The notes below the pieces were generated by a model. The model saw only the letters and a list, made by a program, of their open reading frames with translations, ran no database searches and was not told the DNA's origin. DNA of 64,000 bases from Leptolyngbyaceae cyanobacterium (GTDB lineage Bacteria > Cyanobacteriota > Cyanobacteriia > Cyanobacteriales > Aerosakkonemataceae): NCBI GenBank assembly GCA_036703985.1, contig DATNQN010000079.1:1-64000 (forward strand). The letters are read 5' to 3'. Position numbers and translations under genes: made by a program. Positions 4,780 through 43,040 of this stretch are shown here, in pieces (position 1 is the first letter of the stretch; every line of letters starts with the position of its first letter).

Positions 4780-7700
4780 ATGGCAATATTACACGGTAGT
4801 TGGTTAACTAAATCTCAGGGTGGTTGTTTATTTGTTTGGGGAGAAACTTGGCGCAGAATAGAACCCCTAGACTCTGCTCAACTTAACGACGTGCCAACTC
4901 ATCCATTAGCACTCAGCAAGCAGGAGCTAATAGATTTTTTGACATCTTTAGCATCCGTTCGTCAAGCCTTACCTGAAAATGTTCTCAATTCCGGAGAAAA
5001 TCCTCCAAAAAAGAACAAAAAGAAAAAAGAAGAAGAAACTATATCATTGGGCAGATGGCAAACTCAAACTGTAGCATTACCGACTAACATTAACTCCGAA
5101 AGCGATCGGCAAATTCTGCCCGTACATTCAGGTAATTTATTATCAGAAAATAACAATGAAGAAACTGCTGGATCTTCATATCTTTATCCCTGGCAAGTAG
5201 AAGGGTTTTGTTTGAATGCGCTAGAAGCGATCTCATTTTTAACCGCTTTACCACTCAGTTCTGTCAGCGATTCCGACTCCTATTTAGGCAGAGATTTGCG
5301 GTTTTGGGCGCATATTAGCCGATGGAGCATCGATTTACTAGCTCGCTCTAAATTTTTACCCGGATTAACCACAACTGAAGATAGCGTTTTTGTTGGTTGG
5401 CAACCATTATTAGATAGTGCCACAGATCAAGCTCGCCTGCAAAAATTTGCTCAACAAATGCCAGCCGCTTGTCGCACTTATCAAAATGAGGAAGACCTAA
5501 CCCCCCAACCCCCTTCCCTGCAAGGGAAGGGGGAGGAATCAAAACCTCTTTCCTTGCAGGAGAAAGGTTTTTTCAGCATTCAAATACCACCAGAACCCAA
5601 ACAATTGTTGAGGGAATTTTTAACCAATATTATCGATGCTCAAGTAAGAACTGTTGTCAGTAGTCAGTCTCCACCAAACACAGAACCGATAGTTGAACAA
5701 TGGTTGCAAGCATTAGGAAACGAGGCTGGTAAATTGGCAACAACTGCTGAAGTAACGGAACGCTTGCAAACAATTATTAATAGTTGGACAGCACCACTAC
5801 AACCATTTTTAGCCGGACAAAATTTGTTCCGTACCTGCTTTAAAGTACTTACTCCCGCAGCAGAAGAAAAAAATTGGAATTTAGAATATTGTTTGCAAGC
5901 AGTTGATGAACCAGAATTTTTGGTAGATGCAGTTACGATCTGGAATAACCCGGTTGAAAGTTTAGTTTTTCAAGGCAGAACGATCGAATTACCCCAGGAA
6001 ACATTACTGAGAGGTTTGGGATTAGCTTCTCGGTTAATGCCGATAATGGAACCGAGTTTAGAAACAGCTTCTCCCCGATTTTGTCAACTCGATCCATTAC
6101 AAGCTTATGATTTTATCAAAAATGGTGCTTGGCGTTTTCAAGACAGCGGATTAGGGGTAATTCTGCCACCCAGTTTAGCAAATCGGGAAGGTTGGGCTAG
6201 CCGTTTGGGGTTAAGCGTTCGCGCCGAAACACCAGAAATCAAAAAGAACGAACGTTTGAGTTTACAAAGTCTCTTGAATTTTAAATGGGAATTATCGATC
6301 GGCGGACAAAAACTATCAAAAAAAGAGTTCGATCGCTTAGTTTCCCTGAAAACTCCCTTAGTTGAAATTAACAACGAATGGGTAGAGTTACGACCTCAAG
6401 ATATCAAAGCAGCACAAACCTTTTTTGCAGGTCGCAAAGAGCAAATGTCTCTTTCTTTAGAAGATGCTTTGCGCCTCAGCACTGGCGATAGTCAAACTAT
6501 TGAAAAATTACCAGTAGTTAGTTTTGAAGCTTCTGGCGTATTGCAAGAATTAGTCACGACTCTCACCGGAAATAAAAAGTTAGAACCTATTCAAACTCCT
6601 ACTAGTTTCAAGGGAGAATTGCGTCCTTATCAAGAATTAGGTGCTGGTTGGTTAACCTTTTTGGAACGATGGAGTTTGGGTGCTTGTCTTGCTGATGATA
6701 TGGGATTAGGAAAAACGATCCAATTCATCGCTTTTATGCTGCATCTTCAAGAACAAAACGCATTGGAAAAGCCTACTCTGCTAGTTTGTCCGACTTCTGT
6801 TTTAGGTAACTGGGAAAGAGAAGTGAAAAAATTCGGCCCTAGCTTAAAAACTTTAGTACATCACGGTGATAAACGCGCAAAAGGAAAGGCATTTGCTAAG
6901 GCTGTACAGGATAAAAATTTAATCATCACCAGTTATGCTTTAGTTTTTCGCGATGCCAAAGATTTGCAGAGTGTTGCTTGGCAAGGTGTGGTTTTGGATG
7001 AAGCTCAAAATGTCAAGAATCCAGAGGCGAAACAGTCCCAAGCAGTCCGGCAATTAGATACTACATTTAGGATTGCGCTGACAGGAACTCCTGTAGAAAA
7101 TAGGCTGCAAGAATTGTGGTCTATTATGGATTTTCTCAATCCAGGATACTTGGGGCCACGCAATTTCTTTCAGCGAAGGTTTGCGATTCCGATTGAAAAA
7201 TATGGTGATACGGATTCTTTAAAAACTTTGCGATCGCTAGTGCAACCTTTCATTCTCCGTCGTCTGAAAACTGACCGAGATATCATTCAAGATTTACCAG
7301 AAAAACAAGAGATGACCGTATTTTGTGGTTTGACTACCGAACAAGCAGAAATGTACCAAAAACTGGTAGAAAACTCTCTGGCAGAAATTGAAGAATCGGA
7401 AGGTATTCAACGGCGAGGCATGATTTTGGCGCTATTGGTGAAATTAAAACAAATTTGCAATCACCCAGCGCAATTCTTAAAACAATCTGCTTTAGGAAAT
7501 GCCAATCGTTCTGGAAAATTGCAACGTTTGGAAGAAATGTTAGAAGAGGCAATTTCTGAAGGCGATCGCGCTTTAGTTTTCACTCAATTTGCTGAATGGG
7601 GGAAACTTCTCAAACCCCATTTAGAAAAACAACTCAATCGCGAAGTTTTCTTTTTATATGGCAGCACCAGCAAAAATCAAAGAGAAGAAATGATCGATCG

Positions 7701-31589: not shown

Positions 31590-34500
31590 TTACTTCTGAG
31601 CAGATGGCAAACTCAAATTATCTCTAAGAGTTTGTTCTTGTCTCCTCACTGCTGCCAATAATTCCGCATTTTGCAGAATCACCCCTACTTGATTATTAAA
31701 CACTTGCATATATTTCTGATCGTTCTCATCAAAACTGGTTTGAAAACAAAGTGGTACTTCAACGCCATAAATGGGGTGAAAATCTGCCAACTCACCAGGT
31801 ATTTTTTTATTAACTAATTGAGTAACACCGATCAGATCGCCATCGGGATTGCAAATTGGCATACAAAGTAAACTACAGGTGCGATATCCAGTTGTTCGAT
31901 CGGTCTTTTTAGCAGTATCCGAACCTGGGTAATCGTATAAATCGAAAGGAATATTAACTATTTCACCAGTGTCGGCAACTTTACCCGCATAACCCTGTCC
32001 TATTTGCAAGCGTAATTCTCTTTCCGTACCATCTTGAAAGGAGATTTTCGTCCATAGTTGTTTGGCTTCGCGATCGACTAACCAAAGCGTACTGCGATCG
32101 GCATTCATTAATTCTTTGGCGGCATCCATTACCCGCTTGAGAATTTCATCTAATTCTAAGCTACTTTGACTTACCGATCGAGTTGCTGCCATCAAAGCTG
32201 CTGCTACTCGTTGCCCTCTAGTTGTTTTATGATAAGTACGGAAACTTTCTAAAATCATTTGAATTAAAGATGCGTTTTCCGCAAATCTTTCTTCATCTGC
32301 TTGAGTAAATCCTTGCGGATCGATTCTTTCCGCTAAAGATGCAGATGATTCGTAAAATATCTTTAATTTATTAATTAATTGGACGACAGCTACTAAATTA
32401 CCTTGTTCGTTTAATAATGGTAAAGTTAACATTGTATAGGTACGATAACCATTTTTTTTGTCTTGTTCTTTAGCAGTAATCGAACGAGGGTCGTCGTAAA
32501 AATCATAAGGGATATTGACAGTTTGCTTGCGGGCAGCTACTTCACCAACAATTCCTTTATTAGCAGGTACGCGAATTTCTAAAGACTCGTTGCCTTCTGA
32601 TTCGGCAATAATTGACCAAAATTCATTTCGCTCTTCATCTAATAGAAAAATGGTCGTGCGATCGGCACTCATGGATTTACCCATTTTCAGGGTAATCGAA
32701 CGCAAAGTACTATCGAGAATATCATCAAAACCTTGACCGTCCATCACTTGAGTCAGCATTGCCAAAGTTTGGCTAACCACATTTTGCGGCTGACTTTCGG
32801 CACGTCTTTTTACTTCTGCAAATTCTCTAGCGTGCTGCAAAGCGACTCCCACTTGAGAATTAAATATTTGCATATATTTTTGGCTATTAGCATCAAAGCT
32901 ATCCTGAAAACATTCAGGTGCTTCTGGCCAATCATTGGGGTCGTATTCGGGAAAATCACCCTGTTTTCTTTTATTAATTAATTGGGTAACCCCCAGCAAT
33001 TCCCCATCGGGATTAAAAACCGGCATACAGAGTAAACTACAAGTACGATAACTTGTTTTGCGATCGGTTTGTTTGGCTGTTTCAGATTCGGGATGGTCGT
33101 ACAAATCGAAAGCTATATTTACAGGTTGACCCGTAGCTGCTACTTTGCCAGCAAAACCTTGTCCTATTTGTAATTCTAAAGGAATTACCGAACCATCTTC
33201 TTTAGTTATTTTTGTCCATAATTTACTTCTTTCTTCATTCAATAACCATAAGGTAGTGCGATCGGCATTCATCAATTTTTTGGCAGCTTCCATCACCCGC
33301 GTGATAATTCCTTCCGCATCTAAGCTACCCAGAGAAACTAACCGCGTAGCTTCAGTTAATGCTTCTGAAGCTTGCAATCTTTGAGTTAATTTATAGCAAT
33401 AATGGCATCCTTGTAAAATTCTCTGTAATTCCGGTGCGTATTCAGCTAATTGTTGTTTATCGGTTTCGGTAAAACCTTGTTTGTCAACTCTTTCTATAAA
33501 AGGTACGGCAGTATTATTAGGTTGCTTGACTTTGTTAACTAATTGAATAAAAGCAAATAAATCTGATTGAGCATTTGCTAAAGGCAAGGTAAATTCATTG
33601 TAAATTTTATAAGCGCTAATTCTATCTTGTTCTTGAGCAACAAAAGAATACCAGTTTTCCGATAAATGAGCGGGAATATTGACGGCTTTTTTATAAATCG
33701 TAACTCTGCCTGCGGTTTGGTTATTGGCAAGAATTTGAATTTTGGTTGGACTGCCATCTGCGGTTTGAGCGACGATCGACCAAAGTTCATTTTTTTCTTT
33801 ATCTATGAAAAAGATATTGATGCGATCGACGCTGAGTAATTCGCCCATTTTCAGGGTAATCGAACCCAATATTTCATAGAGAACGTCATCAAAATCTTTT
33901 CCTTCTTTGGCTTCAAGCAAGGAAAGGAGTTTTTGTTCTTGTTCGGCAACTAAGTGCTTGAAATCAGGTTGCAAAGTTGCCAATGCTTTATGCAGCCAAA
34001 AGGAGTTAAAAACTGCCGCGTAAATCCGGTTGTAAACTTTTAATTTACCTGCCTGTTTAACTACTACTCCAGAAAGACGCAATTCCATTTGTTCCCGGCT
34101 TTCGTCCGCAGGAATTTCGCCTCTTAGTAAGATTTCTTGATAAATTTTTAGTAGTGGCTTGGTGTTTTGTCCGATTCTGAGCAAGCGATCGCGAATTGTT
34201 TTCAGGTGTGCGGGTTCGTCTTGCGCTTCCCAATTTTCAATGATTTGAGTCTGGATTAGATTTTCTACCCACTCGACTTCGCTACCTGAGAGACCTAAAG
34301 ATTTAGAATTATATATTAAATTACAAATTTTTTGCGTGAGAAATGGTTGCCCTCCAGTCCAGGCTAAAATCGCGTCTAAAACTGCTTGGGGATTACTAAC
34401 TTTTCCGGCTAATCCTTGGGCGAGTGGTTGGGCTTCCGCGAATTTAAAACCGTGTAATTCGATCGCGCGACCGATATTAAAGGGAGTGCAGGTTTTATCT

Positions 34501-35090
34501 TGGATTAAATCGGAGGGAGTTGCCACTCCTAGTAAGGCAAAAGTGAGGCGATCGTATTCGTTGCACGAGCGAATAAATGCAAAAAAATCATCGTTACGAA
34601 AGGATAAACTGAGAGTACTATCAATTTCATCGATAAAAATAACTATTTTTTGACTGACGCATTCTAGCAATACTTGTTCGATAAATTCACTCAATCTTTG
34701 TACGGGGGAAATGAATTCGCGATCGCGCAACCACGATCGCAAATTTATTTGTAGCTGAAAACAAGTTACCAGCCGTCTCATCAATCCTGCATACCACTGA
34801 TCCGGCGTGATATCTTGGCTACCGATTTTGTTTAAATCGATCGCCGCGCAAGCAATTCCTTCTGCTTGCAAGCGGTGCATCGTTCGCACGCGCAGGCTAG
34901 TTTTTCCCATCTGGCGGGAATTGAGTACGTAACAAAATTCCCCTGCTTTTAACCCTTGATAAAGTTCGTCATCAGCTTGTCGCACTACATAAGTGGGGGA
35001 ATCTAAGGGTAAATGTCCCCCCACTTTGTAACTATAAGTCGAGTCTGGCTGTTCGCTCATTAATGGTTCTGGTTTTGTAGAAAACACCAT
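31590..35090 (-). CDS. AAA-like (AAA_35) ATPase with four GAF domains
   Basis: Soluble protein of 1166 residues. The N-terminus is an AAA_35-type P-loop ATPase (about 20-375) with Walker A variant NSRQMGKTS (57-65) and Walker B IFIDEID (151-157). Four GAF domains follow at about 400-560, 590-755, 790-950 and 980-1145. GAF1 resembles GAF3 and GAF2 strongly resembles GAF4, so a GAF pair has duplicated in tandem. GAF3 keeps the full cyclic-nucleotide NKFDE pattern (N906, K907, F928, D932, E933); GAF1 and GAF4 keep it partly. There is no catalytic output domain beyond the ATPase. The start lies 75 bp after the stop of the HTH-TIR-AAA_35 gene on the same strand, which suggests an operon. A second start at residue 11 is possible. 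Confidence 0.85.
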
Positions 35091-35165
35091 ATTGAATAAC
35101 TCAAGTTTCTGCTGACTGATTACGACTGAATATAAAATTTACTTTTGCGATCGATTAAGCTACAT

Positions 35166-37064
35166 CTAAATGCAGGACAATCCCGATCGCTTAATTACTA
35201 AGCGATCGCCAAAATACTGCCTGTATAATTCAAATCGAGGTGTTACTTCATTTCCCCGCAACTGCACCAATCCCAAACTATGTAATTTAAACGCTAACAC
35301 AGACTCTAGCTCCACAGGTTCCTTCGCTGTCACTACTTTAGCGAAAGCCGCCGCTAATTCAGGATGTTCTTGTAAATTCCACAAATGCCGCCGCAGATGA
35401 TCGCCATAAATTCCCGCTTCGGTAGGTGCAATTTCTAATAATTCTTCTAAAGTAATTTTTTGTAGGGCAGCATGATAAAAAGCTACCCTGATCAAATAAG
35501 GATGCCCACCTATAATACTCATTAATTTTTCAATATAATTGGTTTGCCAATCCAATCCATGCCGCTGCGCCAAATCGTAAACTTGCTGTTGGCTAAATTC
35601 CGACAATTCGATCGGCAATCCCACATTAAACGGCGATTGATTCACATTCAGGGGAATATAAACTTCCGTTGAATGTACTACTATTAATCGCAGTTTTTCC
35701 CATAAGAAACTGTCGCTATCACTATACCCCGCTTCTTCATACCACGCCCGCAACAAACCGAAAAAGTCATCAGCAATATTGGGATATTGAAAAACGCGAT
35801 CGACTTCATCCAAACCTAATACTAAAGGGCTATCTATTTGTGGCAAAATACAATCTTCAAAATAAGCAGTACAATTATCTTTACTGCCATAAGTATCCGT
35901 CCAATACTCATCTACTTGATTCGGTAATTTTAACTTACGAGAAATTTTCGTACAAAACCATCGCAGTAATTCGTTCAAATTCGTAAATACTGCCGTGTCT
36001 GCGTGTTGAAAACTTAACGGCACTGTACGATATCCTTGTTCTTTAGCTTGATAAAGAATTCTCGCCATTAACGAGGTTTTTCCCATCTGCCTGGGAGCTT
36101 TAATTCTAATCAAAGCCCCCGGTTGCATAATAGCTTTATAACATTGAATTTCATGAGGAAATCGTTCGATATAAAATGTAGAATCTAACCGAACTTGACC
36201 GTTTGGTAATTCTGGTTCTCCGACTGGTGAAGGAGAAGGAATTTTAGAGATTGTTTCTGATATTTCGCTAGAAGCAGTAAGGATAGGATCGGAGTTCGAT
36301 AAACTAATCTCGGTTTCCCATTCCTCATAACTTTCTACTCCCCATTCTCCCTCTTTTGTCAGTAAGTTGATAGTTTCTTGAATAATCTGGGGGGTGTCTT
36401 TAAGTGAAAACCATTCCCTTTTGCGCGTTTCATCCAAATAACTGCGTAAATCGTGATTTAAATTTAAATTAGCCGGACAGTTAATCCGCAATTGCAATAC
36501 CATAGGTTTACGATTTTGACGCGATTCGCGCAGTTCTTTAGCTCTTCTCAATTCCTCAATTACCATTTCGCTAACGGCAGCTTGGGGAGATAGCAATAGT
36601 AAAAAGTAATCGCATTGCTCTAATTGTAAATCGATTTTTGTCAGCCAATCGGGATCGCATTGTTGACCTGTTGCCACGTTAGCCATAAAAGCTTGATGTC
36701 CCGCACCTGAAATCGCTGCATAGAATTGTGCTGCTATATTAAAATCTAGTTCTAGGCTGCAATAACTAATAAAAACTCTGGAAATTTTTCCCTCTTCTTG
36801 CTTTCTTTGCCGTTCTATTACTCTTTCTATAGCGCCTCGAAACTTTTTTTTAGTAACTTTTTCGCCTAAAACTTGAGAAAGCTTTTGCCATAGTTTATAA
36901 CCGACGTATTTTTCTACGTATTCGGGGTTAAGTGGATAAATCTGCTCGTAAGTCTGCCCTAGCCAAGAACCAATGAAAACTTGCCTCTCTAAGTCATTCA
37001 AGTGTTTTCCGGTTCTACTGTGGATTAATTCGTCTAACAATTCTAAAGCTTCTTTAACTTCCAT
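35166..37064 (-). CDS. HTH-TIR-AAA_35 multidomain protein
   Basis: Protein of 632 residues with three parts. Residues 1-85 (ELLDELIHSRTGKHLNDLER, then a TYEQIY-type helix pair) match the N-terminal HTH seen in VMAP/vWA-MoxR-associated proteins. Residues 94-235 form a TIR domain (RVFISYCSLELDF, DYFLLLLSP) with a Glu at the expected NADase position (E171 in SEMVIEEL). Residues 285-625 form an AAA_35 ATPase with Walker A APRQMGKTS (323-331) and Walker B VLGLDEVD (415-422). TIR plus P-loop architecture is typical of bacterial conflict and immune proteins, so NAD-dependent signalling or cell-suicide activity is plausible but unproven. First gene of a likely operon with the GAF ATPase. Confidence 0.85.
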   Translation of the reverse strand: MEVKEALELLDELIHSRTGKHLNDLERQVFIGSWLGQTYEQIYPLNPEYVEKYVGYKLWQKLSQVLGEKVTKKKFRGAIERVIERQRKQEEGKISRVFISYCSLELDFNIAAQFYAAISGAGHQAFMANVATGQQCDPDWLTKIDLQLEQCDYFLLLLSPQAAVSEMVIEELRRAKELRESRQNRKPMVLQLRINCPANLNLNHDLRSYLDETRKREWFSLKDTPQIIQETINLLTKEGEWGVESYEEWETEISLSNSDPILTASSEISETISKIPSPSPVGEPELPNGQVRLDSTFYIERFPHEIQCYKAIMQPGALIRIKAPRQMGKTSLMARILYQAKEQGYRTVPLSFQHADTAVFTNLNELLRWFCTKISRKLKLPNQVDEYWTDTYGSKDNCTAYFEDCILPQIDSPLVLGLDEVDRVFQYPNIADDFFGLLRAWYEEAGYSDSDSFLWEKLRLIVVHSTEVYIPLNVNQSPFNVGLPIELSEFSQQQVYDLAQRHGLDWQTNYIEKLMSIIGGHPYLIRVAFYHAALQKITLEELLEIAPTEAGIYGDHLRRHLWNLQEHPELAAAFAKVVTAKEPVELESVLAFKLHSLGLVQLRGNEVTPRFELYRQYFGDRLVIKRSGLSCI

Positions 37065-37461
37065 ACCTACTCCTTTAAATAAAATTAAAATTCATATCCG
37101 TAGTATTTCGCAAAAATTAATAAGCTTTTATGAGGTTTTATGAGATTTCATGAGGTTTTAAACTAGATAATAAAACAGGTGATTTTGGAAAATGGTATTT
37201 ATCTCAAAAAAGCGAGCTAATTTATGAGCTTTTTTGGTTACTATTTCCGGAAATATCCGTAAAAATAATGATAGTTGTCACTATTCCATAAAGTGCAAGA
37301 TAAAAACATCAAACAGCGATCGCGGTTAAGCTAGTAGAAAGCTGAATATCCGCAGCGAATCGGTCATCTTAACTAATTCTCTGCTTTAACCAGCCCGTAA
37401 AAAAATTATCAATCTAAATACCAGCTATTTGCCAAACTCGGATTCGATCGGAGAAATGCTC
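37065..37461. other. Divergent promoter region of TIR and HD genes
   Basis: A 397-bp spacer with diverging genes on both sides. TTATGAGGTTT-type repeats lie at about 37129-37160. CAAAAAAGC (37205-37213) pairs with GCTTTTTTG (37228-37236), a hairpin flanked by A/T runs that could terminate or attenuate in either direction. The promoters of both signalling genes should be here, so shared control is possible. Confidence 0.45.
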
Positions 37462-38496
37462 ATGTTTAGTCTCACAGATGTCATAATTAATACCTGCATC
37501 GAACGCCTAGAAGCAGGTTACCGCAATACTTACGGCAACATTCAACCAGACTATACCGATCTTATCCGCTCGATCGCCTACATGGTATTGGACAATATAG
37601 CCACTAGCAACGCCCTTTATCACGATGTCGAACATACCGTCTTAGTAACCTTAGTGGGACAAGAAATACTGCGGGGTAAGCAAGTTCGCTACGGTAACGT
37701 TTCGCCTGAAGATTGGTTGCACGTCATCATTGCTTTGTTGTGTCATGATATCGGTTACGTTAAAGGAACTTGCGATCGAGACAACATTAGTGGAAAAATC
37801 TATGACAAGGGAATCGACGGCGAGATAATTTCTCTGCCAGAAGGTTCCACCGATGCTAGTTTTACTCCTTACCACGTAGACCGAGGAAAACAATTTATTG
37901 AAGAAAAGTTTTCCGGTCATCAATTGATTAATGTGGAGTCGATCAAACACTACATTGAATTAACCCGTTTTCCCGTACCCAAAGATGACGCCCATCAAGA
38001 TACTGCTAACTATCCCGGTTTAGTTCGGGCAGCTGATTTAATCGGTCAATTAAGCGACCCTCACTATTTAGAAAAATTACCTGCTCTATTTTATGAATTT
38101 GAAGAAACGGGAATGAATAAAATTTTGGGGAATCATCACCCCCAAGATTTACGAGCTAGCTATCCTAACTTTTTCTGGAATGTGGTTTATCCTTATATTC
38201 AAGAGGGATTGCAATACTTGCAAATGACGAAAGAAGGGAAACAAATCATTACTTATTTGTATCATAATGTATTGGTAGTAGAATTGGAAAATTTCGATAA
38301 TCAGAGTAAAGAGGTAATTCCCGATGAGATAGCATTTCCCTCCTTTCGGGGAATGATTGGTAAGCACGCAAAACCGAATATTTATGAAAAACCTAAGGTG
38401 GTCAGCCAGAAAATTAAGAGTATACCAATCTTATTTTTTCCGCAAAAAATCCGGAGAAATCGCAAAATAAAGACAAAATTATGTTCGTTTGAATGA
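37462..38496 (+). CDS. HD-domain phosphohydrolase
   Basis: Protein of 344 residues with a metal-dependent HD phosphohydrolase domain. The metal ligands are likely in YHDVEHT (His of the first helix), the doublet in LLCHDIGYVKG, and a distal Asp in RAADLIGQLSD. The pattern resembles cyclic-nucleotide phosphodiesterase-like HD proteins, but the substrate is not determined by sequence. A TTG at 37429 could open the frame; ATG 37462 is chosen because GGAG lies eight bases upstream. The C-terminus has a basic tail (KIRRNRKIKTK). It diverges from the TIR-AAA gene and ends in a strong terminator. Confidence 0.85.
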   Translation: MFSLTDVIINTCIERLEAGYRNTYGNIQPDYTDLIRSIAYMVLDNIATSNALYHDVEHTVLVTLVGQEILRGKQVRYGNVSPEDWLHVIIALLCHDIGYVKGTCDRDNISGKIYDKGIDGEIISLPEGSTDASFTPYHVDRGKQFIEEKFSGHQLINVESIKHYIELTRFPVPKDDAHQDTANYPGLVRAADLIGQLSDPHYLEKLPALFYEFEETGMNKILGNHHPQDLRASYPNFFWNVVYPYIQEGLQYLQMTKEGKQIITYLYHNVLVVELENFDNQSKEVIPDEIAFPSFRGMIGKHAKPNIYEKPKVVSQKIKSIPILFFPQKIRRNRKIKTKLCSFE

Positions 38497-42437: not shown

Positions 42438-43040
42438 TTAGCCTTCAGACTTCATCCTTTCTCGTAAATCGGTTAGGGTATTGCAATTAAAAAGCATATC
42501 TTTCCACTGTTCGCTAACAGGAATAGCTTGTACGGGAACTTGTGATAACCAAGTTTGAAAAGAACGTCCGCCTTGTTGAATAAATTTTTGCAATTCAGGT
42601 AAACTTTCTCGTCGATAAAAACCGCACATAGGTTGCCACAGTTCATCCTGACGCGGAACAAAAGCTAATACATTAGACGGTAAATCAGTTAATTGATTTA
42701 TCCAAGTTTGAATAATATTTTTTTCCAATATCGGTAAGTCACAAGCTAACAGTAATACCCAATTAGTATTAATTTGTGACATTCCTTCTGCTAAACCAAC
42801 TAATGGCCCTTGACCGGGGTTAGTTTCTAATATAAATTGACAATTTTCTGTAATTATATCTTGATAGCGTTCTTGCCAAGGAGTTAGCACGTAAACTTGT
42901 TGGCAACATTCCGATGCTACTTGGCATACTCTGGTTAACATAGGTATGCCCTGCCAAGGAATCAGGGCTTTGTCTTGTCCCATACGCGAACTTTTACCGC
43001 CAACGAGGATTAAGGCTGATGCAAGGAAATTTTTCTTCAT
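42438..43040 (-). CDS. mobA: Molybdenum cofactor guanylyltransferase
   Basis: Protein of 200 residues that attaches GMP to molybdopterin, giving the MGD cofactor used by nitrate reductase. The N-terminal nucleotide-binding loop LVGGKSSRMGQDKALIPW is the MobA form of the LxGGxSxRMGxDK motif; the metal-binding Asp lies in LLLACDLPIL. The position next to cnaT, ntcB and, across the island, narB fits supply of cofactor for NarB. It is transcribed away from cnaT in the same direction, separated by 231 bp with a short tandem repeat. Confidence 0.93.
   Translation of the reverse strand: MKKNFLASALILVGGKSSRMGQDKALIPWQGIPMLTRVCQVASECCQQVYVLTPWQERYQDIITENCQFILETNPGQGPLVGLAEGMSQINTNWVLLLACDLPILEKNIIQTWINQLTDLPSNVLAFVPRQDELWQPMCGFYRRESLPELQKFIQQGGRSFQTWLSQVPVQAIPVSEQWKDMLFNCNTLTDLRERMKSEG

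Follow-up and report, generated by a model that had tools for sequence, protein, structure and literature searches.

The structure of the tandem GAF domains of CyaB2 (1YKD) contains cyclic AMP (cAMP), contacted by R291, T293, I308, D356 and N359 (PMC4411481), and CyaB2 has a PAS-cyclase output. In Synechocystis, XssQ, a protein of the STAND type (signal transduction ATPases with numerous domains), reads single or tandem short sites through an N-terminal DNA-binding helix-turn-helix (HTH) and is partnered by a phosphorelay (PMC8205485). AAA_35 domains joined to sigma-70 proteins are on record in cyanobacteria as a domain count, in passages that do not pair sensor-type with output-type AAA_35 genes (PMC11119718). 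Here, we describe a locus that resembles each of these in part. It lies in a 64,000-nucleotide stretch of a Leptolyngbyaceae cyanobacterium (assembly GCA_036703985.1, contig DATNQN010000079.1; the whole stretch is called the window), where the open reading frame (ORF) list places two AAA_35 ATPase genes on one strand, 75 bp apart, and an HD-domain gene diverging from them. The two ATPases carry different AAA_35 types, an output type (AAA_35a) in an HTH-TIR-AAA_35a protein and a sensor type (AAA_35b) in an AAA_35b-GAFx4 protein; together with the HD gene, they form what we call the trio. GAF2 to GAF4 of the sensor resemble the CyaB2 tandem GAF and retain most of its cAMP contacts, whereas the protein as a whole has four GAF domains on an AAA_35 ATPase. 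Like XssQ, the output protein is an ATPase with a (predicted) N-terminal DNA-binding domain, while its partner is a GAF-AAA_35 protein.

The trio would be a new form of STAND-type and cAMP signalling. We read it as a regulatory module responsive to a cyclic nucleotide, most likely cAMP, in which an ATP-driven regulator would control its own phosphodiesterase (PDE), a reading that we regard as evenly balanced between right and wrong. From gene order, domain homology and repeats, we infer each functional step of the following mechanism. cAMP (or cGMP) would be bound by the AAA_35b-GAFx4 protein via GAF2 to GAF4, which is the well-supported step; the STAND-like AAA_35b would then act on the AAA_35a of the HTH-TIR protein, with one switch divided between a sensor protein and an output protein; the HTH of the latter would bind 10-bp repeats in the gap between the divergent TIR and HD genes and control its own operon and the HD gene, as the cis-elements suggest; and the HD protein, judging from its fold and motif, would hydrolyse the cyclic nucleotide and close a feedback loop. 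The effect of cAMP could be activation or relief of repression. Such a sense-signal-degrade circuit, regulatory rather than defensive, is plausible and, if true, would bring TIR domains and STAND-like ATPases together with cAMP signalling in a single regulated circuit that has a defined operator.

The conserved trio and its GAF sensor

The HD/TIR/GAF trio is a real, conserved unit. Among 100 genomes, that of the window plus 99 from related members of its family or order, a full-length TIR orthologue was found in 22 and a full-length GAF orthologue in 21, and the HD family occurs in 55 genomes overall, including 22/22 of those with a TIR orthologue. Loci were gathered from the other 21 of these 22 genomes, together with seven from GTDB; two were duplicates (L001 = L057, the G009 locus, and L002 = L060, the G093 locus), and the remaining 26 loci plus the window make 27. 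L002 was removed from the final counts and is still inside the domain identity means and operator shuffles given below. HD adjoins TIR divergently in 26/27 unique loci, the exception being L070, and an AAA_35b gene lies 3′ of TIR on the same strand in 24/25 loci with sufficient sequence, counting L106 and L006, where it is broken. The genes are thus not scattered independently, and the proposal of the initial annotation, a note made from the window's sequence, that they form a module is supported; the three architectures, the 75-bp spacing and the divergent HD gene that it described are all confirmed by ORFs, Pfam and NCBIfam (the HTH without a Pfam match). Four genomes from the family of the window share its flanks, G003, G004 and G007 on both sides and G009 on one, and the flanks of the other loci differ; because the three-gene order recurs amid mostly different flanks, it goes beyond chance. 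Inserted between TIR and GAF in some genomes are DUF4058, RusA-like, restriction endonuclease (REase)-like, AbiGi-like and pentapeptide genes.

The AAA_35b-GAFx4 gene (31590-35090, minus strand) encodes a predicted cyclic-nucleotide-sensing ATPase of 1166 aa, in which Pfam recognizes AAA_35 (91.9 bits) and three GAF stretches (GAF/GAF_2), and a hidden Markov model (HMM) built from the same protein delimits four GAF domains. The AAA_35b domain, placed by our own HMM (residues 21-375, 33966-35030), keeps its Walker A among the four variants listed, and the Walker B core IDEID (IFIDEID in the window) is kept in the six commonest variants. Behind it, and likewise on the minus strand, follow GAF1 (residues 400-560, 33411-33893), GAF2 (588-752, 32835-33329), GAF3 (786-947, 32250-32735) and GAF4 (975-1140, 31671-32168). 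The CyaB2 tandem GAF (E=5e-159 for the whole sequence) is matched in two stretches, residues 621-765 in GAF2 and residues 767-1037 covering GAF3 and the first part of GAF4. When the CyaB2 contacts are placed on the GAF domains by motif, the window protein has 5/5 in GAF3 and 4/5 in each of GAF2 and GAF4, where N359 becomes T. Across 23 full-length orthologues, the R and D contacts are invariant in GAF2 to GAF4; the T293 position is T or S save for one A in GAF3, and the I308 position is I, V or L save for one N in GAF4. The N359 position is N in GAF3 (22/23) and T or S in GAF2 and GAF4, and the pocket of GAF1 is degenerate, in the window as in the orthologues. The NKFDE motif is complete in GAF3 (D 23/23, E 21/23) and partial in the other GAF domains. 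This pattern supports well that GAF2 to GAF4 would bind a cyclic nucleotide, most likely cAMP.

Two parallel module types repeat this layout. In G090 and G050, which belong to one genus, a gene of the same HD family is divergent to an AAA_35a gene, with AAA_35b-GAFx2-PAS next in line and no TIR (L098:4082-10629 and L099:3903-10359); the one AAA_35a examined here, that of G090 (L098), carries a LuxR-type HTH. In the window's genome, G085, G081 and G004, a GAF2-PAS-adenylyl cyclase gene diverges from HTH-AAA_35a, followed by AAA_35b-GAFx4 (L044:7077-14664, G000:C25; L095, L100 and L101); 9-bp repeats close to CTGAATTTT precede HTH-AAA_35a, which in G085 and G081 also has a cyclase-like C-terminus. 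Counting the trio, an AAA_35a / AAA_35b-GAF pair stands opposite an enzyme of cyclic-nucleotide synthesis, or of its probable breakdown, in three arrangements. The parallel modules retain an HTH (for the HD type, as seen in G090) and have no TIR, which is the variable part of these modules.

The HD protein, the HTH domain and the direct repeats

The HD gene (37462-38496, plus strand; ORF 37429-38496), a predicted cyclic-nucleotide phosphodiesterase gene, probably starts at the ATG at 37462 and not at the TTG at 37429, because 5/7 aligned relatives begin there. Its product belongs to NCBIfam NF045583, 'Npun_R2479 family HD domain-containing metalloprotein' (458 bits, cut-off 400), a family name under which no literature was found; it has no Pfam match above cut-off (HD, E=0.12) and no PDE family among the Pfam matches listed at E<=10. 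In its structural model, 205 of the 355 residues reach a predicted local distance difference test (pLDDT) score of at least 70. VIA-align superposes the model on PDE10A and PDE5 over 219-230 residues with Z 15.8-17.2 (the upper value over ~227 residues), a root-mean-square deviation of 3.7-4.2 and 12-16% identity in its best 50 rows, which are all PDE10A or PDE5; helical folds may attain Z 13 through common arrangement. The YHxxxH / HD / D motif is invariant (H65, H69, H106 and D107 in 26/26 orthologues, D203 in the 24/24 with letters there), and these residues would have the metal and general-acid roles of their PDE counterparts. The HD protein thus resembles the class I PDEs (PDE10A, PDE5) in predicted fold and motif and differs from them in its low identity, stand-alone form and lack of a profile match, and a counterpart of the purine clamp was not recognized.

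The HTH-TIR-AAA_35a gene (35166-37064, minus strand) encodes a predicted output/DNA-binding ATPase of 632 aa with Pfam matches to AAA_35 (510 bits) and TIR_2 (45.5 bits). Its AAA_35a domain (residues 285-621, 35202-36212; Pfam and own HMM) has the Walker A APRQMGKTS and the Walker B LDEVD. The HTH-like domain (residues 1-86, 36807-37064; our label HTHv) has no Pfam match even at E<10; it is helical in the model, and the same domain stands N-terminally on other ATPases of the window's genome. It probably binds DNA, chiefly because direct repeats precede genes with the same HTH.

In the window, the gap between the HD and TIR genes holds 10-bp direct repeats of ATGAGGTTTT and variants. The predicted operator comprises three units, ATGAGGTTTT/ATGAGATTTC/ATGAGGTTTT, at 37130-37159, with a degenerate unit ahead of the array (37120-37129) and a lone extra unit, TGAGCTTT, at 37225-37232, 74 bp from the nearest array unit (all plus strand). 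Of 26 HD-TIR intervals, 18 contain TGAGNTTT as a perfect tandem pair; across 300 dinucleotide shuffles of the interval set, no interval did. Within the 7.68-Mb draft genome, the tandem pattern is unique to the HD-TIR gap; the 100 genomes together have 66 occurrences, 20 of which fall inside an HD-TIR interval (15 genomes). A count allowing two mismatches (26/26 intervals, duplicate out) comes without a null model and is not used as evidence, and helical phasing of the extra unit is weak (Rayleigh p 0.015 to 0.07 by the period chosen; lineages not independent). Outside the intervals, G020 and G087, which belong to a single genus, have the pattern ahead of a lone HD paralog, perfect in the former and with one mismatch in the latter (L102, upstream of HD 6388-7392, and L103; 67-68% identical to the window HD). 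Of 11 other outside places examined, three lie upstream of same-HTH genes (<=70 bp twice, in one genus, and ~1.1 kb once) and one at a contig end. At L139:4221-4248 (G008:C6), a perfect array lies ~130 bp from a contig end in the genome whose trio has no adjacent HD, possibly the mark of a rearrangement or an assembly break.

Repeats are also associated with the HTH domain elsewhere. Among genes of at least 200 aa in the gathered stretches of the window's genome, strong repeats of 9-11-bp period within 200 bp upstream were detected for 5/10 same-HTH genes (the window's own included) versus 7/138 others (Fisher p=3e-4), and three of these seven control genes share their intergenic region with an HTH gene. 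For AAA_35a genes outside the trio, repeats within 450 bp upstream were found in 5/11 with the HTH versus 3/42 without; within the trio, 18/24 pass the same threshold over the same distance. The five repeat-bearing HTH-AAA_35a genes are not independent, because four belong to the adenylyl-cyclase module. By eye, the repeat units of same-HTH genes resemble YGANNTTTT. Four same-HTH genes (L152, L154, L155 and L148; G000:C57, C103, C26 and C72) each have a different set of 9-10-bp direct repeats ~60-125 bp upstream of the start; three encode NB-ARC/AAA-type ATPases, and L148 is a 169-aa ORF.

Contrary evidence and alternative readings

Several observations weigh against a cyclic-nucleotide module under an HTH operator. 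For the HD protein, the Foldseek match of the model to PDEs is weak (E 8e-3), with other HD-type proteins ranking lower, the mean pLDDT of the model is 68, and a PDB profile search at E<=10 returned no PDE, a single-sequence PDB search being equally unhelpful. Paralogs of the HD family exist without any AAA_35 neighbour, so that HD is not dedicated to the module. As to the trio itself, the GAF gene of G009 lies on a different contig from TIR, and locus L070 has no HD. No perfect operator pair is present in 8/26 HD-TIR intervals; in the 100 genomes, the pattern occurs at 46 places outside the interval versus 23 for a reversed control; 7/11 of the examined outside places have no HTH or HD gene by our own HMMs within the stretch; L132 has the pattern beside an AAA_35 pair without the same HTH; and about half of the same-HTH genes tested have no such repeats. 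XssQ was tried as a homologue and rejected, as it matched neither of two HTH HMMs nor the AAA_35 HMM, and it is therefore an analogue only. With a PDE-like fold and an invariant motif on one side and a weak Foldseek match and no profile match on the other, cyclic nucleotide hydrolysis by the HD protein is plausible, though not certain.

The substrate of the HD protein is also where the best-surviving alternative arises. HD superfamily substrates are diverse, the invariant columns contain no clear counterpart, by eye, of the purine-binding glutamine of PDEs, and a PDE match at the sequence level is lacking. The HD protein could then act on another nucleotide or phosphate ester, its linkage reflecting shared transcriptional control by the HTH protein alone; however, the exclusive ranking of PDE10A and PDE5 among the best VIA-align rows, and the position of the same HD family opposite CyaB2-like GAF domains in a second module type, make this rather unlikely.

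The TIR domain (residues 95-229, 36378-36782, minus strand) bears on a defensive reading. The full-length model of its protein is of low confidence (pTM 0.34, AAA_35 fold unclear), and only the TIR region was therefore used; this region matches SPARTA (Z 16.5) and SARM1 (Z 14.8). In a profile of the window TIR and four paralogues, residue 171 aligns with the WxxxE Glu of AbTIR and Cat1, which we take to be catalytic. Across the 27 orthologues, this residue is Glu in 19 and M, I, K, L or A in 8, and the WxxxE Trp position is Met in 26 and Ile in one; E170 is invariant, and the window protein has both Glu170 and Glu171. Mean identity to the window is 57% for TIR, 72% for HTH and 79% for AAA_35a. 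The trio protein thus shares the TIR fold with the SPARTA TIR-APAZ, SARM1 and AbTIR NADases, but it has no WxxxE Trp and does not conserve the Glu at the catalytic position. Since these residues are not conserved across the family and TIR is less conserved than HTH and AAA_35a, a conserved NADase role seems unlikely. The domain most likely serves in assembly or signalling, and some orthologues may cleave NAD.

An anti-phage or abortive-infection system would work differently: infection or stress would shift cAMP, the GAF-AAA_35b protein would free HTH-TIR-AAA_35a, the TIR would deplete nicotinamide adenine dinucleotide (NAD) and HD would limit the signal. STAND-like ATPases are common in immunity, the TIR fold is genuine and near those of SPARTA and SARM1, and the window protein has both glutamates; moreover, the AbiGi-like, RusA-like and REase-like genes found between TIR and GAF in some genomes are all above Pfam cut-offs, a mild pointer towards defence in the case of the AbiGi-like and nuclease-like genes. 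Against this stand the substitutions at the catalytic positions, the lower conservation of the TIR than of HTH and AAA_35a and the existence of parallel modules without TIR. PADLOC matched 0/3 trio proteins and gave weak or generic matches on ten window neighbours, and no phage relative was found in a search that covered the TIR protein alone. Support for phage defence is thin, and we hold this alternative to be improbable. Pycsar comprises an adjacent dedicated cyclase plus an effector with a domain binding cyclic nucleotide monophosphates. Like Pycsar and other cyclic-nucleotide-gated TIR effectors, the trio would place a TIR protein under cyclic-nucleotide control, but its sensor is a separate GAF-AAA_35 protein, it has an HTH-like domain with repeats, and a cyclase HMM from two seed sequences found no match in the window at E<=1e-4.

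The presence of TIR, GAF and HD in one conserved unit might also suggest that the TIR makes a messenger of the cyclic ADP-ribose type, which the GAF domains sense and HD destroys. This is quite improbable: the GAF domains carry the pocket residues by which the adenine of cAMP is read, the TIR catalytic residues are not conserved, and parallel modules have related GAF domains without TIR, alongside adenylyl cyclase or HD. Least probable of all is a neighbourhood kept by vertical inheritance alone, without joint function, for while some family members share flanks with the window, the trio persists amid differing flanks elsewhere, parallel modules repeat its logic and the repeats are shared.

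The initial annotation is accordingly upheld in part. Its suggestion that GAF domains sense and HD hydrolyses a cyclic nucleotide gains from the CyaB2 likeness, pocket conservation, PDE fold and parallel modules; a TIR acting as a conserved NADase or signal source does not fit the substitutions at the catalytic positions, and a defence role finds little backing. The operator, the sensor/output pairing of AAA_35 proteins and the TIR-less modules were not part of it. These findings also caution against calling TIR genes defence genes on domain content alone.

Pairing of AAA_35 output and sensor genes

The window's genome encodes 10 AAA_35a domains (417-538 bits) and 15 AAA_35b domains (95-130 bits), and 7/10 AAA_35a genes have an AAA_35b gene within 3 kb downstream on the same strand. 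Across non-trio loci, AAA_35a is followed by AAA_35b in 37/54 (32 within 1 kb), or in 32/49 when five loci chosen with a partner already known nearby (L095 and L098-L101) are left out. L080, L082 and L086, fetched with a partner known on the same contig, are not scored as pairs. Outside the window's genome, the other AAA_35a loci were hand-picked in roughly rank order, with some skipped, after partner positions had been seen, from a list weighted towards relatives of the TIR protein, so these rates do not describe a random sample. The outputs observed on AAA_35a are TIR, sigma-region-4-TIR, cyclase-TIR, GGDEF and HTH, and the sensors on AAA_35b are GAF and WD40, with CHASE2 on an unpaired AAA_35b.

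We tentatively propose, with somewhat less than even confidence, that these genes form an undescribed cyanobacterial class of two-protein signalling systems, in which an AAA_35b sensor gene lies just downstream of an AAA_35a output gene, HTH outputs frequently recognize private 9-10-bp repeats at the promoters of their own genes, and the trio is the version with cyclic-nucleotide feedback. The observations allow, without proving, sensors that combine AAA_35b with GAF, WD40 or CHASE2, outputs that combine AAA_35a with HTH, sigma-region-4, LuxR-HTH, TIR, cyclase or GGDEF, and a logic analogous to that of two-component systems. The searched literature, mainly non-subscription, held no description that we recognized of the trio combination or of the AAA_35 pairing. 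If true, the proposal would also hint at what the large 'AAA-like domain' protein family does, of which the window's genome alone has 10 output-type and 15 sensor-type copies.

On plasmids, AAA_35 pairs were found and the trio was not seen. Plasmid records with a relative number 52 for the TIR protein and 43 for the GAF protein; seven records reach 80% coverage of the TIR protein, all below 60% identity, and none has 80% of the GAF protein at a single place. The plasmid of Nostoc sp. TCL26-01 (L158) carries four consecutive 'AAA-like domain-containing' genes, with one adjacent pair in the order AAA_35a then AAA_35b. A cyclase-homology domain stands ahead of TIR-AAA_35a at L043:13006-15183 and at L116, L117, L118, L119, L120, L123 and L131, possibly an enzyme-TIR-ATPase fusion. 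The two neighbouring window genes run against Pfam encode an aspartase/fumarase-type lyase and a TPR protein. Within 200 bp upstream of the window gene at 42438-43040 (minus strand) lie short tandem repeats, TTCATCTGTG, which are near the reverse complement of the repeats of L097 and L053, dispersed and unrelated to the operator.

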